Positions 16,500-24,692 are shown, counted from the first letter of the stretch. The stretch is DNA of 40,692 nucleotides from Spirochaetota bacterium (GCA_018815555.1 JAHIWF010000108.1:1-40692); one strand, 5' to 3'. The notes: a model not told the origin generated them from the sequence alone. Translations and numbers: made by a program.

Positions 16500-19400
16500 T
16501 CAGAAAAGCACACGCAGACTGAGTCCGAGTGTATAGGAAAAGACAAAAACCTGATATCCGGAATACAGGTGCAGCTGTTGTTCAAGCTGAACGGTAGCGG
16601 CTGCAGACAGATTACCGGCAAGCACATAACGGGATTCATAATTCTCAAGCAAGCTGATGACTATAGGTAAATCCAGACCGGAGCGTTTTACCTGTAGATC
16701 AAGCGACCACAACTCGCGACTGACACCAGACGCATAACGAAGCGCAAACAGCCAATCTGAAACCAGTTCATCTGGCCCTTCCCCACTTTCTGAATATGCT
16801 GTCTGCGGATCCTGTGCAGTTTCTGCAGGGGGGGCATCAATATTTTCACGTAACAAGGTTTTTTCGAGTACCAGGTCGACCAGGCCACTCAACCAGCTTG
16901 CCGCTAATCTTTTGCTTAGGGACCAGCCGATTCCGTGTTGCCAGATTGATTCAGTGCGATCCTGTTCCCAACTACTGCTTAGTTTCAGGCCGGTGCCGCC
17001 ATTTTCCTGGTCATGCCAGAATAATGACCATTTACCGGTTAATACGGGAAGCACGAGATTCGCTTCCAAAAACTGTAATCCTGCAGAGAATGACCAGGCA
17101 TACTCATCCAGTTCTATCGAGCTCAATACAGGCAGAGCCGACTGTCTGGCAAATACATTAACTGCGGCACCAGCCAAGTCGATTTTCATGGTAGAGCTAT
17201 CTGCGACTATATCCTGTTTTCGTTCCAGTTTTCTGGACCAGAGGAAGGAGAGATCAGTCGGAATCAGCATATCAATCCAGCCAAAACCATTTTTTCGTTT
17301 GATGTTTAACCCGGCTGACGGAGAATATTCTGCTGCTGGCAAAGCAGTACTGGCTGTTTCGAATTGGCTGGAAGGCTGAGGCTGCCAAAATTCTGCTATT
17401 GGCAGAAAGCCCCAGACCGGCAGCAAACTACTGGTTGCGTTTAACCAGGATTTAAAATCAGTGTAAAAAGAGTCTGACACTATAGCGAGCTTGGCAGAAT
17501 GACTGCGGGCATACTGCAGTGTAAAATCAAGAAAGCCGGCGGAGAGTATCAGCTTGGCTTGGGCGGACAGGCGCGATCCAGAAAGCCCTTCTGCAATGCT
17601 TTGTTGCGTAGCTTCTACACTCAGCCAGGTTGACGGACCGGCTTCCAGCTTCAGACTGGAGTTTCTGCTGGCTGCAGGAAGCAGCTGACTCGGGATAAGA
17701 TAACGCCAACTGTCCAGCCAGACCTGGCCCCACGCGGCTGCAGGTAAAACTTGCTGGAGACTGGATTGGTCAAACCCGGCTGCTGCATTGAAAATTCCAG
17801 ACCCGAATCCGAATTTCCAGATATCATTGCGGGCTATCTGCTTCAGGCTTCCACTATATGCAGCGGAAGCCTGGATTCCGCTACTCGCCAATTGAAGTGA
17901 AAGTGTATGTGCTAGAGCGCTGCGGATTGGATCATAAGAAAAGTCATGGCCGGCATTCAGGCTGAGTCCCTTCCAGGCGTGTATCATTCCGCTCAACCGG
18001 CTGGTATAGGCCGAACTGAGCGCATTATAGTCCGGCGAAATATAGGGTTCCAGCTTCAGGCCAAGAGTGAGCGGTCCCAGTGGAGCTGAAGCGCGAAAAA
18101 GAGCGCGCATGGCCACGGCTGTACTTCCTGCGTGATTCTCTGCAAAAGCGTTGATTTTGGTATCAAACCAGAGTGCCGGTTCGTCAGTAGAAGTATATTG
18201 CATACTATTCTCTGAATACAGCCCAAAGCCGTTCAGCGGATTGCCCAGCAGAAAAGCGGCCAACTGTAACACTCCGCCCCCAGGATCGTCTGCGTCGATC
18301 CGCAGCATGGTAATAGTTTCCAGCAGACCATCGCGGGAATATTGCAGGGCAGGAACATCTATGGTTGAACCATCAGGCTGCAAGATATTCAGCTCAGCAC
18401 CGGCGGTGCGTAGATCAATTTCAAAGCGCAGCCAAGTGTTGGCCGGTATTTGTGCTAGGGGAAATGAAAGTTCGGCAATTGACTCAGCACCATGCAGCCT
18501 CAGTGTCAACATCGCATCGGCATTGACCATAGACGGTGGAGCATAATGGAGGAAAAAAGATAGGCTCCTGTGGGTTTCCACTCCGGTACTCTCCGGATAA
18601 TGAACCAGTGAAACGGTATCGCTGGTTTCAGCCAGATTAAGCTGCAGTGACGGCTCATTACTTTGTGATCCCGGCAGTTTGACGAAAAAATCCGCCCAGG
18701 CATGGCGCAGCTCCGGCTGATCAGCCAATGTGGTCAACACAGATTCTTCGTCAATCGCGGTCAGCGGCATAAATACAGATGCATAAGGAGCGGACGGTTG
18801 CAGATTGAACAAGCGCCGATACGGAGCCGCATCGCTTTGACTGTACCGGCCTAAAAGCACGGCCTGCCCTACTAGTGGAGATTCAGGATTCTGATACTCA
18901 ATTTCTGCCAGTATATTTGCCCAGACACTCTGCATAGATTCAGTGCTTTCAGATAGTTCTGTCGGAAAAGGCAGCCTTCCGCCAACGGCAAGCCTTCCGA
19001 GCAATTGCTTGCTCAGTTGATGTTCTATGCCCAGCGCCACGGCCAGCGCTCCATCCGAACGATCGGTAGAGAGTGTGCTGTAATGTATCAGTATTTCATC
19101 GCCCGGTGCTGGTGGTGGCTGCAGCTGAATAAGGCCGCTGGCTGTATCGAAGATAAAATTGCGGTCGGAAATTCCATTGCGGTACACCTGGATGGTATCA
19201 GCAATAGCTGCAGTATCGATAGCTAAGCTTTGGCTGCTGACGGCTGCACTGCGTATCCGGATCCGGTATCCCGGCAGATCCGGTCCAGGCTGATACGTGC
19301 TGCTGTCAGAATCGGTGGTACTTTGCGCTTGGTATATCCAGGCATTATCTAAGTAGAAGGGTTCGCTAAATACCGTGTCCGCTGGAGTGCTCAGTGCACC

Positions 19401-20387
19401 GCGAAGCTGAATCAGACCAGGCCCGACTTGTTCGACCTCCCATAATTCTGCAGGCATACCACTTTGTCTTGAAATAATGTCCACAGTAGTAGAAGCCAAG
19501 TCGGTTTGAAGCGCATACAGGTTTTTCAGCTCGAATGGATTGTACGCAGTTGGATCATACAATTGAACAGACTCATACACCATGCTTGAATCGGCATAAT
19601 CCGCAAACAGCTGACCTGTAGCCGTTTTATCGAGCAGGATAGATCCAGTGGCAAGACTGAGGCTGTATTCAGCTGGACCCAGCTCGCGCCGGCTGCCTCC
19701 TTGCAACAAAAACAAGCGGACTGCCGTAAAGGGTGGATTACCGGGCAGGATAAAGGACTTTCCGCGCAGCCACTGCTGTATTTCAATATATTGGGCTTCG
19801 TCTGGGGTTGTGCCGATGAAACGCCTCGTATGATTTTGTATTGTATCCCAGCGCAGCATAGCAAACAAGCGGGTTTTCTGCTGACGCCAGGAAAATTGCC
19901 CTTTCAGACCAAAAGCCCCTGTGAGTGCGCTGAAATTGAAGCCCGGCCAGACAGGGAAATTGATTTCGGAGTTACCCAAGCGGGCTTCCTGAATGATTTC
20001 TTCGTCATCCCCGAAATAGCCAAGCGAAAAAAGCAGATCCGAGACTGTTTCAGTGACACGAGTCTCAAATTGCCATTTCTGATTCAGTGTAAGCAGCACA
20101 TATAAATCAGGAAGCTGCTTAAATAAAAGCGCTTGAGCAGAAAAGGCCGCTCCATCTGCAGCAGACAGAGCTAATGATCCATCGCTCAAGAAAGATATGT
20201 CCCAAAATCCCTGCATCAGTAATTCTACATTGTCGTCATTTCGGGCCAGACTTAGAATACTTGTTGGTGCTTCACCGGGCAAAAGAACCGGAGCGGCAGA
20301 GGATGTTGTTTGTGTATGCTGTCCGGTAGCCAGGGTGGCATACAGGACCCAAAAAACCGCTGTCAGATGTCTTTTCATAGTGCTCAT
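16500..20387 (-). CDS. Very large predicted outer-membrane beta-barrel protein, SprA-like features
   Basis: The 1295-residue protein has an N-terminal signal peptide (KRHLTAVFWVLYATLATGQ). It contains many alternating beta strands and ends in SLRVLF, the terminal Phe typical of outer-membrane barrels. Residues about 120-200 include DDEEIIQEARLGNSEINFP and FSALTGAFGLKGQFSW. I recall similar segments from the repeated unit of SprA, the Bacteroidota type 9 secretion translocon. Several beta-sandwich-like inserts follow, such as LIQLQPPPAPGDEILIHYST and a lectin-like stretch near residue 640-740. The second half is Trp/Tyr/Ser-rich and barrel-like. The start could be ATG 20387 or 20378. Neither has a good Shine-Dalgarno, and a weak promoter ends 11 bases before the first. 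Function is not established; the SprA link is a hypothesis. Confidence 0.75.
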   Translation of the reverse strand: MSTMKRHLTAVFWVLYATLATGQHTQTTSSAAPVLLPGEAPTSILSLARNDDNVELLMQGFWDISFLSDGSLALSAADGAAFSAQALLFKQLPDLYVLLTLNQKWQFETRVTETVSDLLFSLGYFGDDEEIIQEARLGNSEINFPVWPGFNFSALTGAFGLKGQFSWRQQKTRLFAMLRWDTIQNHTRRFIGTTPDEAQYIEIQQWLRGKSFILPGNPPFTAVRLFLLQGGSRRELGPAEYSLSLATGSILLDKTATGQLFADYADSSMVYESVQLYDPTAYNPFELKNLYALQTDLASTTVDIISRQSGMPAELWEVEQVGPGLIQLRGALSTPADTVFSEPFYLDNAWIYQAQSTTDSDSSTYQPGPDLPGYRIRIRSAAVSSQSLAIDTAAIADTIQVYRNGISDRNFIFDTASGLIQLQPPPAPGDEILIHYSTLSTDRSDGALAVALGIEHQLSKQLLGRLAVGGRLPFPTELSESTESMQSVWANILAEIEYQNPESPLVGQAVLLGRYSQSDAAPYRRLFNLQPSAPYASVFMPLTAIDEESVLTTLADQPELRHAWADFFVKLPGSQSNEPSLQLNLAETSDTVSLVHYPESTGVETHRSLSFFLHYAPPSMVNADAMLTLRLHGAESIAELSFPLAQIPANTWLRFEIDLRTAGAELNILQPDGSTIDVPALQYSRDGLLETITMLRIDADDPGGGVLQLAAFLLGNPLNGFGLYSENSMQYTSTDEPALWFDTKINAFAENHAGSTAVAMRALFRASAPLGPLTLGLKLEPYISPDYNALSSAYTSRLSGMIHAWKGLSLNAGHDFSYDPIRSALAHTLSLQLASSGIQASAAYSGSLKQIARNDIWKFGFGSGIFNAAAGFDQSSLQQVLPAAAWGQVWLDSWRYLIPSQLLPAASRNSSLKLEAGPSTWLSVEATQQSIAEGLSGSRLSAQAKLILSAGFLDFTLQYARSHSAKLAIVSDSFYTDFKSWLNATSSLLPVWGFLPIAEFWQPQPSSQFETASTALPAAEYSPSAGLNIKRKNGFGWIDMLIPTDLSFLWSRKLERKQDIVADSSTMKIDLAGAAVNVFARQSALPVLSSIELDEYAWSFSAGLQFLEANLVLPVLTGKWSLFWHDQENGGTGLKLSSSWEQDRTESIWQHGIGWSLSKRLAASWLSGLVDLVLEKTLLRENIDAPPAETAQDPQTAYSESGEGPDELVSDWLFALRYASGVSRELWSLDLQVKRSGLDLPIVISLLENYESRYVLAGNLSAAATVQLEQQLHLYSGYQVFVFSYTLGLSLRVLF

Positions 20388-22369: not shown

Positions 22370-23524
22370 ATGAAAAAGTATATAGTAGCAATTATATCAG
22401 CGGGATTTTTTTTATTTATGTCTTGTGTATCTAGTCCACAAAGCACAGTGCAACCAGCTGCTCCCACGCAGGATATTACAGGAACTGCCCCGGCTTCCAC
22501 GGTTAAGGCCGATCCGGCTCTTCTTAACGAAATTGAAGCTCTGCGCAGCCAGGCCCGTCAGTCTATAGCCGATAATAAAATCTCTGAAGGCATAAAACTG
22601 TACATATCCGCTATGCTGCGCGCCAGAACCAGCTATCCGGAAATCTTTACCAACCTAAATATGGAAATTGCAGCCATATCCGCCCGCTTAAGTCTGGAAC
22701 CACATGAAGACTGGTTGGGACCAGGTGGTGAGCAGATTAGCGCTTCAACCCGCGAGATCCTTAGTGCTAAATCCATTATGCCTTCAGTATATCTGTACGA
22801 AAATTACGGTTTCGGTAAAGCGGCTATTCCTGATGCGGCCATCCGCTTCGAATTCATAGAAAATAATGGAACACTGGTTCAGACAGTAACTACTGATAGT
22901 TTTGGCATGGCCAATACTACAATTAGCTCAATTGAGAGCTCCGGCAGAAACGCGCATATTCGGGCGTATCCAGTATTCAGCAATGAGGGGTTCTCGTATG
23001 CCTTTAAGGAGCTATACAGAGATTTTGTTTATCTGGCCCCACGAACCCATATTCTGGTTGCAGGCATGGAAAAAACGCCGACAGGAAGCGGCACTGCACC
23101 TCGTAGTATGGATGCTGCAGCTCAATCAATCCGGGATCTGGATTTTGATGTTTCGGTACTTGGGACAACACCAGAAGACCGTAGTTTCAGCCTTGCTATG
23201 AATGGTAATAAAGAGGCTATTGCCATACTTAACAAGGATGGTGAGGCCGGCTATATAGCGCTGCTTTTGCTGGAAATTGATGCACCAACGCAATTGGTGG
23301 TTCAGGGAGTCAGCTACAATATATTTAATACTAATGGCCGCATGACCCTGCGGATTATTCGGACTGACGGCACCGTTGTCTATACCTTACTAAAGGATAA
23401 AGTGCGCGGCCAAGGTGGAAACACGGCAGCCGCCATTGATGACTGTAGACTGAAATTGCAGAATGAAATTACCAACATGATTCGTGATAATAATTCTGTA
23501 ATCAGAGAAGCTTTTCTGGATTAG
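22370..23524 (+). CDS. Predicted lipoprotein with N-terminal helical region
   Basis: The 384-residue lipoprotein has signal sequence KKYIVAIISAGFFLFMSC, with lipidation at Cys19 (FMSC, a spirochaete-style relaxed lipobox). A Pro/Thr-rich linker follows. Then comes a TPR-like helical stretch (IEALRSQARQSIADNKISEGIKLYISAM), a beta-rich middle with an Ig-like look (FIENNGTLVQTVTTDSFGMANT), and a C-terminal alpha/beta domain with AIDDCRLKLQNEITNMIRD. I do not recognise a named family. ATG 22370 is preceded by AGGGAGG. That site lies in a small CCCT-TTT-AGGG hairpin that could weaken ribosome access. The end overlaps dinB tail to tail by 23 bases. Confidence 0.75.
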   Translation: MKKYIVAIISAGFFLFMSCVSSPQSTVQPAAPTQDITGTAPASTVKADPALLNEIEALRSQARQSIADNKISEGIKLYISAMLRARTSYPEIFTNLNMEIAAISARLSLEPHEDWLGPGGEQISASTREILSAKSIMPSVYLYENYGFGKAAIPDAAIRFEFIENNGTLVQTVTTDSFGMANTTISSIESSGRNAHIRAYPVFSNEGFSYAFKELYRDFVYLAPRTHILVAGMEKTPTGSGTAPRSMDAAAQSIRDLDFDVSVLGTTPEDRSFSLAMNGNKEAIAILNKDGEAGYIALLLLEIDAPTQLVVQGVSYNIFNTNGRMTLRIIRTDGTVVYTLLKDKVRGQGGNTAAAIDDCRLKLQNEITNMIRDNNSVIREAFLD

Positions 23525-24692
23525 GTTCTGAGTTTTCCGGCTTAGTTGGCTGTTTCAGTAAGCGTGCTCGGGTAAGTGTACCGAGTCCACTCCGGTTAAC
23601 CTCAAAAACCGCCTTCTCCAACTGACCGGCCCGGCTCTCCCGGGTTGTAAATAATTCCGGCTGGCTTACATCCACGTTGAACCCGAAGAGACTTAGTCCA
23701 ATAAGACGTATAGGGCGACCATTCCATTTTTGGTTAAATAATTTCATGGCTTGTGCATAGATTTCATCCATACAGGTAAAGGCAGCCGGCCGACTGGACC
23801 GGGTGGTGAGCGTGGAGAAATCTTCATATCGCAGTTTAAGTTGAAGTCCATTGGCACTATAATTTTCACGATACAGGCGTTGGCTAAGTTCCTGACAGAT
23901 TTGCAAAAGCACCGCGCTGATGGTTTCACTGTCGATTACATCATTGCCAAAAGTTGTTTCGGTTCCGATTGATTTGCTTCGGGCTTCCTGAGTATAGATA
24001 CCAGGATCCTGTCCCCTGCATACTGTAAATAGAAATTCACCCCCTGCCCTTCCGAAAAGCGATTGCAGCAGGTTTAGGTTGTAATCTGCCAGATTGCTCA
24101 CGCTTTTTATGCCCAATTCGGCGAAACGTTCACGGGTTTTTTCTCCAGCACCCCATATATCTCTTAGTGCCAGTGATCGCATAAAAGCTTCCTCTGTTCC
24201 CGGTGGAACCAGTACCAATCCGTCCGGTTTTTTAAGACCACAGGCGATTTTTGCAATATAACGATTCGCCGCTACGCCTATGGATACACTCAGACCACTA
24301 GCACTGGCAACAGCGGCTTTTATCAATAAAGCAGCCTTTTCTGGTGGTCCCCAGAGTCGCTCTGTACCAGTCATATCCAGGCTGGCCTCGTCAATCGACA
24401 CCTGGTGTACATCGGGTGTAAAATCACCGAATAGTTTTATTATAGTGTCGGATATCTCAATGTAGCGATTCATGCGCACAGGGAGAAAAAACGCCTGAGG
24501 GCAGCGTCGATAAGCCTCATTGATGGGCATGGCCGAATGGATACCGTAGCGCCTGGCTTCGTAGGAACAAGTGGACACTACTCCACGTTGGCCGTGCTGC
24601 GCACCGACAACTACGGGCTTTCCTTTTAGCTCCGGATGGTCATTCTGTTCAACTGAGGCAAAAAAGGCATCCAGATCAATATGAAAATACAC
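23502..24692 (-). CDS. dinB: DNA polymerase IV (Y family)
   Basis: The 396-residue translesion polymerase opens with FHIDLDAFFASVEQ (catalytic Asp). It has VVVGAQHGQRGVVSTCSYEARRYG in the fingers region, and VSIDEASLDMTG with the second acidic pair near residue 102. SIGVAANRYIAKIACGLKKPDGL and IWGAGEKTRERFAELGI (helix-hairpin-helix) follow. The little-finger domain includes SIGTETTFGNDV. The start is GTG 24692 with GGAG about 8 bases upstream. No clear LexA-type box is visible, and the gene is probably co-transcribed with the upstream membrane-protein gene 14 bases away. I cannot identify a clamp-binding motif with confidence at the C terminus. Confidence 0.96.
   Translation of the reverse strand: MYFHIDLDAFFASVEQNDHPELKGKPVVVGAQHGQRGVVSTCSYEARRYGIHSAMPINEAYRRCPQAFFLPVRMNRYIEISDTIIKLFGDFTPDVHQVSIDEASLDMTGTERLWGPPEKAALLIKAAVASASGLSVSIGVAANRYIAKIACGLKKPDGLVLVPPGTEEAFMRSLALRDIWGAGEKTRERFAELGIKSVSNLADYNLNLLQSLFGRAGGEFLFTVCRGQDPGIYTQEARSKSIGTETTFGNDVIDSETISAVLLQICQELSQRLYRENYSANGLQLKLRYEDFSTLTTRSSRPAAFTCMDEIYAQAMKLFNQKWNGRPIRLIGLSLFGFNVDVSQPELFTTRESRAGQLEKAVFEVNRSGLGTLTRARLLKQPTKPENSEPNPEKLL

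Follow-up and report, generated by a model that had tools for sequence, protein, structure and literature searches.

The closest described relative of the protein analysed here is SprA (Sov), the outer-membrane translocon of the type 9 secretion system (T9SS) of Bacteroidota, represented by the family models TIGR04189 and PF14349 and by the structures PDB 6H3I, 8GL6 and 8GL8. SprA is a barrel of 36 strands with an extracellular cap and a lateral opening, at which PorV docks. In F. johnsoniae the C-terminal domain of a cargo protein is held in the SprA pore by loops of PorV, and leaves the pore sideways together with PorV (PMC10994853). A 2016 survey placed the T9SS in Bacteroidetes alone (PMC4793230), and a 2024 review in the FCB group (Fibrobacteres–Bacteroidetes–Chlorobi; PMC11205867). 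A survey of SprA in the oral microbiota, whose main text makes no mention of Treponema, reported that Ignavibacterium and Melioribacter have SprA, PorV and Plug but lack the remaining T9SS proteins (PMC11705866). We found no report of SprA or of a T9SS in spirochaetes in the open-licence literature that we searched.

We analysed a stretch of 40,692 nucleotides from a Spirochaetota bacterium (GCA_018815555.1, JAHIWF010000108.1), hereafter the window. An open reading frame on its minus strand (16500..20387), beginning with ATG, encodes a protein of 1295 amino acids that ends in ...LGLSLRVLF. On the basis of the reading frame, homologue searches, an AlphaFold model and Foldseek, we assign it as a SprA-like giant outer-membrane barrel. 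It is not a chance reading frame: of the 296 genomes of the phylum that were searched, 45 contain relatives when the protein itself is the query, and 89 when the query is a profile of the N-terminal part of the family (alignment A2, the first ~420 residues of 35 sequences). These relatives are between 1100 and about 2300 residues long. One of the T. denticola-like genomes (G173; L037:6718-10154, minus strand) has the barrel reading frame broken into two overlapping frames, whether by a frameshift, an error or recoding, and the cargo gene described below is present.

The N-terminus reads MSTMKRHLTAVFWVLYATLATGQ and resembles a signal peptide (residues ~1–22; 20322..20387, minus strand), with Met4 as a possible alternative start. 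The first-pass annotation had claimed both this signal peptide and a terminal Phe; both claims held, the former by reading of the sequence without a signal-peptide predictor, the latter with the Phe being almost invariant across the barrel family, where near-invariant positions are also found in the N-terminal half. The N-terminal domain (residues 40–460; 19008..20270, minus strand) is homologous to residues ~177–762 of SprA (the span of the A2 alignment; profile–profile P 4.8e-8). Within it lies a unit (residues 121–200; 19788..20027, minus strand), LGYFGDDEEIIQEARLGNSEINFP...LTGAFGLKGQFSW...IEIQQWLRGKSFIL, which the annotation had likened, by eye, to the repeated unit of SprA; the two motifs that it quoted are present exactly, at residues ~127–170. 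This unit aligns with LAYTGEEDEIIKSLEAGNVSM...GGAALFGMKADLQFG...FEIKVDEYDENRHFFL of the Parabacteroides SprA, which opens the alignment between A2 and SprA. A second unit shared with SprA (residues ~395–445; 19053..19205, minus strand; consensus PGSVxVYxNGI...YDxxxGxxxL...DxIxI) aligns with GSVRVTAGGATLTENVDYTVDYSLGRVTI. A beta-rich insertion (residues ~563–718; 18234..18701, minus strand), possibly jelly-roll like, was assigned by eye from the strand pattern of the model and remains an inference. The C-terminal barrel strands, identified by DSSP on the model, occupy residues ~706–1295 (16503..18272, minus strand) and include the terminal Phe.

Searched directly, the window protein had no meaningful match in Pfam, NCBIfam or PHROGs or among PDB sequences, and neither curated SprA model, PF14349 (threshold 27 bits) or TIGR04189 (threshold 200 bits), matched it. 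The PF14349 cut-off was not reached in any of the 296 genomes of the phylum. Since this model produced only scraps below its cut-off, reliance on curated models only would have led to a false rejection of homology. We therefore rely on comparisons between profiles. SprA sequences were collected from a record of Parabacteroides and by genome scanning, and 25 of them were aligned. Comparison of A2 with this alignment by hhalign gave a score of 79.1 (P 4.8e-8, probability 95%) over a collinear stretch of 420 columns, whereas reversed profiles scored 18–20 and 50 column-shuffled profiles no more than 22.9. TonB receptors and UPF0164 barrels, used as unrelated-barrel controls in the profile–profile comparison, gave no signal. 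The two families also found each other in HMMER searches. The A2 HMM recovered almost all SprA open reading frames among 613 (best E 1.8e-11), the sole non-SprA match being one weak frame (E 0.36); in the reverse direction, the SprA HMM recovered T. denticola-like members of the barrel family with E of 2e-5 to 7e-5.

Decisive evidence comes from bridging sequences found in other families of the phylum, which match both SprA and the window family. One such member (L205) gave E 4e-46 against the window family, 2e-23 against SprA and ~1e-33 against TIGR04189. Against the latter model, bridging members reached E of 1.1e-33 and 1e-23, at 83–116 bits, which is below the cut-off of 200 bits. An alignment of 18 bridging proteins matched SprA over 1082 columns (P 2.5e-53), and the window family matched the same alignment over 899 columns (P 9e-51). 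As this set joins the two families, homology is beyond doubt, and through the bridging members it spans most of the chain; for the C-terminal part (family columns 1172–1492), the match to the C-terminus of the bridging proteins is weak (P 8e-4). The window protein is thus a distant but real, shortened homologue of SprA. Because the curated cut-offs are not met, we class it as a SprA-like homologue and not as SprA or a SprA equivalog. Two further giant frames of the phylum (L219 and L220; 2443 and 2519 amino acids) were tried as bridges and matched neither family. No SprA was found in the viral contigs searched; a later match was a phage gene with one short common peptide, and was dismissed.

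The predicted structure is consistent with this assignment. AlphaFold modelled residues 96–1295 of the window protein as a very large barrel (mean pLDDT 78, pTM 0.55), and did likewise for a T. denticola-like member of 1139 amino acids (pLDDT 82, pTM 0.54). DSSP on the models gave roughly 30 long strands, an approximate count, against 36 in SprA. This supports the claim of dense beta content and a large barrel made in the first-pass annotation, and a small barrel is not what was predicted. In Foldseek searches of the PDB, SprA chains took ranks 1–4 for both models, with E of 1.1e-18 to 1.2e-12 for the window model and 6.8e-16 to 5.5e-08 for the T. denticola-like one; the next matches, human ApoB100 and LptD, had E of 9e-7 or worse. 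TM-scores were modest (up to 0.46–0.50 on the query), which is in line with a chain only half as long as SprA. SprA was stated in the annotation to be about twice the size of the window protein, which agrees with ~2400 against 1295 amino acids.

Along with a very large single-chain barrel, predicted by modelling on the spirochaete side, the N-terminal unit and the GSV-x-V-x-x-G unit, the spirochaete and Bacteroidota systems have in common the co-occurrence of the barrel with a PorV-like protein and a protein bearing a C-terminal domain. A PorV model gave one strong match, of full or nearly full length, in nearly every one of the 12 spirochaetes searched, with E down to 3e-22. This protein belongs to UPF0164 (PF03687); its match to the PorV/PorQ family (NF033709) is full length, but it does not reach the curated PorV cut-off, has a TPR tail at its C-terminus and is labelled FadL-like in T. 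pallidum, where the UPF0164 proteins are treated as fatty-acid importers (PMC8407342). The model of the T9SS sorting domain found about one protein per genome, giant and of secreted type, as opposed to the tens of substrates of a T9SS. Its conserved Ig-like domain sits, as does the T9SS type A sorting domain (TIGR04183), at the extreme C-terminus, ending ...DEIRKVMVVK (the ...RKVMVVK end being a point of likeness); however, it fits FlgD_ig (PF13860) better than TIGR04183. In the window's own genome the PorV-like gene (contig C200, L181) and the cargo gene (contig C170, L169; 1901 amino acids) are both truncated by contig ends.

Unlike in the SprA systems of Bacteroidota, we detected no GldL, GldM or PorU peptidase alongside the spirochaete barrel. 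These absences rest on searches of the genome set, with TIGR03513 and TIGR03517 as the motor models. For GldM, 12 spirochaetes gave nothing significant (fragments with E 0.02–0.1), while four of four Bacteroidota controls were strongly positive. The GldL and PorU searches covered eight spirochaetes of the class, eight genomes from the rest of the phylum and four Bacteroidota controls. GldL was found in none of the eight class-level spirochaetes and in all four controls; the spirochaete matches were weak and partial, lay in unrelated frames of ~380–1100 amino acids (chemotaxis-like in size), and were rejected. The C25 peptidase of PorU was absent from the same eight class-level genomes and present in three of the four controls, with one weak match in a distant genome of the phylum (E 1.4e-6). 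The first-pass annotation had proposed looking for other T9SS parts; of these, then, the PorV-like protein and the C-terminal-domain cargo were found, and GldL, GldM and PorU were not.

We compared the distribution of the three components with family-specific profiles. The genomes with the barrel and those with the cargo domain were an identical set of 46 at the level of the class. Each of the 46 contained exactly one cargo match (E 1e-40 or better), in frames of 1186–7462 amino acids (median 2510; some truncated by contig ends), and each contained a PorV-like gene (E 1e-140 or better). At least 25 classmates had neither barrel nor cargo. The barrel–cargo association gave a Fisher value of 1e-19, and the same was seen within one genus, where 17 genomes had both and 11 had neither (5e-8); neither value is corrected for relatedness, and losses were not mapped on a species tree. 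The three genes are not adjacent in the class-level genomes. Outside the class, in all six loci examined (L223, L224, L225, L226, L227 and L228), the gene for the C-terminal-domain protein has a PorV-like gene as its immediate neighbour, and both lie on the same strand. Four distant genomes of the phylum (G012, G025, G036 and G002) encode ten or more proteins with the C-terminal domain; it is possible that these represent a multi-cargo version of the system. UPF0164 genes were also found without barrel or cargo, in G056, G111, G146, G209 and G228. In G056, from the same order as the window genome, there are five genes of the UPF0164/FadL-like kind (at ~593 kb and ~935–946 kb); this fits the five of T. 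pallidum (PMC8407342), which G056 resembles, and they may be remnants of the carrier or its reuse.

It has been computed that the barrel is homologous to SprA and UPF0164 to PorV, that the cargo has a conserved domain at its extreme C-terminus, that the three occur strictly together, and that GldL, GldM and the PorU peptidase go undetected. Formation of a complex, the direction of transport, lateral exit and retention on the surface are inferred. We consider it likely that the three components form a reduced, single-cargo, T9SS-like export module, in which the barrel works in the manner of the T9SS translocon, although export itself is inferred and not supported by experiment. In this model, the giant surface protein, the main and possibly the sole substrate in each species, would pass the inner membrane by means of its signal peptide, and the barrel would serve as its channel through the outer membrane. 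The C-terminal Ig-like domain of the cargo would be gripped in the SprA-like pore by loops of the PorV-like UPF0164 barrel, docked at a lateral opening; the carrier would then exit sideways with the cargo, and may retain it on the surface. As homologues of all three parts occur strictly together, the same cycle as in F. johnsoniae is the simplest reading. The proposal in the annotation of an undescribed protein-translocating or surface-assembly barrel is supported, the homology being computed and translocation only inferred.

Several points stand against the export model: the barrel misses the curated SprA cut-offs and is about half the size of SprA, GldL, GldM and the PorU peptidase were not detected, the cargo domain is FlgD_ig-like, the genes are not adjacent in the class-level genomes, and UPF0164 also occurs without the barrel. 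With the motor proteins GldL and GldM undetected, the energy source of the presumed export cannot be assigned. We do not file the system as a T9SS, because the motor and curated-model tests are not met. The SprA–PorV–Plug sets of Ignavibacterium and Melioribacter are alike in having a translocon and carrier without the known motor, but belong to another phylum, and their SprA can be recognised by ordinary search, unlike the spirochaete barrel. A bolder reading, towards which we lean by a small margin, is that this is the spirochaetes' own system, present in oral and gut treponemes too, comprising a translocon and carrier for one giant protein without GldLM and, in many treponemes, a polyprotein of DinB, signal peptide and barrel. 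If true, the history of the T9SS-type export machine would be broadened by a branch in the spirochaetes, and nature would offer an example of SprA-type export that does without the known rotary motor. Treponemes would gain a named candidate route for a very large surface protein, and a new role would be suggested for the UPF0164/FadL-like proteins, which are studied as syphilis vaccine candidates.

Of the alternatives, the one that survives best, though unlikely, is a full T9SS in disguise, with a GldLM-type motor that has diverged beyond recognition by TIGR03513 and TIGR03517. In its favour, the barrel, a true homologue, already lies below the curated cut-offs, and other parts could too. Against it, the spirochaete GldL and GldM matches were weak or fragmentary where all four Bacteroidota controls were strong, and Ignavibacterium and Melioribacter set a precedent for motor-less sets (PMC11705866). 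Somewhat less likely still is a SprA homologue with a changed job, such as the transport of lipids or nutrients or a structural role in the outer membrane, with only an indirect link to the cargo. The halved size, the missing T9SS parts and the view of UPF0164 proteins as FadL-like importers (PMC8407342) would fit this; however, the barrel and the single C-terminal-domain protein match one-to-one in 46 genomes, also inside one genus, and genes for such proteins adjoin PorV-like genes in relatives. Plain convergence of a generic large outer-membrane barrel unrelated to SprA, which the alternating strands common to all such barrels and the empty direct Pfam and NCBIfam scans might suggest, is all but ruled out, as profile scores far exceed the shuffled and reversed controls, TonB receptors and UPF0164 give no signal, SprA alone tops the Foldseek lists, and the bridging alignment matches both families, which refutes it.

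The polyprotein included in the bolder reading rests on the neighbourhood of the barrel gene. In the window, dinB (DNA polymerase IV; 23502..24692, minus strand) is located upstream of the barrel gene at a distance of ~3.1 kb; we regard it as a neighbourhood marker and do not claim it as a part of the machine. metG lies downstream on the same strand, and the immediate upstream genes are on the opposite strand. The interval between dinB and the barrel gene holds opposite-strand genes including a DUF503 gene, in an order partly common to relatives. In T. denticola-like genomes the dinB and barrel frames abut, and in about 21 Treponema-like genomes dinB continues in frame, without a stop, through a signal peptide to the barrel (loci include L059:6437-12391 and L060:8160-14219, both minus strand, L045, L046, L047, L056, L061, L187 and L190). 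At several of these junctions no ATG, GTG or TTG precedes the hydrophobic stretch, which makes a separate start of the barrel unlikely there. It is possible that a DinB–barrel polyprotein is made and cut by signal peptidase, a proposal for which there is no direct evidence. A DNA polymerase as the leader of an outer-membrane protein would be very odd. Whereas the spirochaete barrel gene is found beside dinB or fused with it, in the Parabacteroides record (L067) sprA comes immediately after ruvA; both neighbours are DNA-repair genes.
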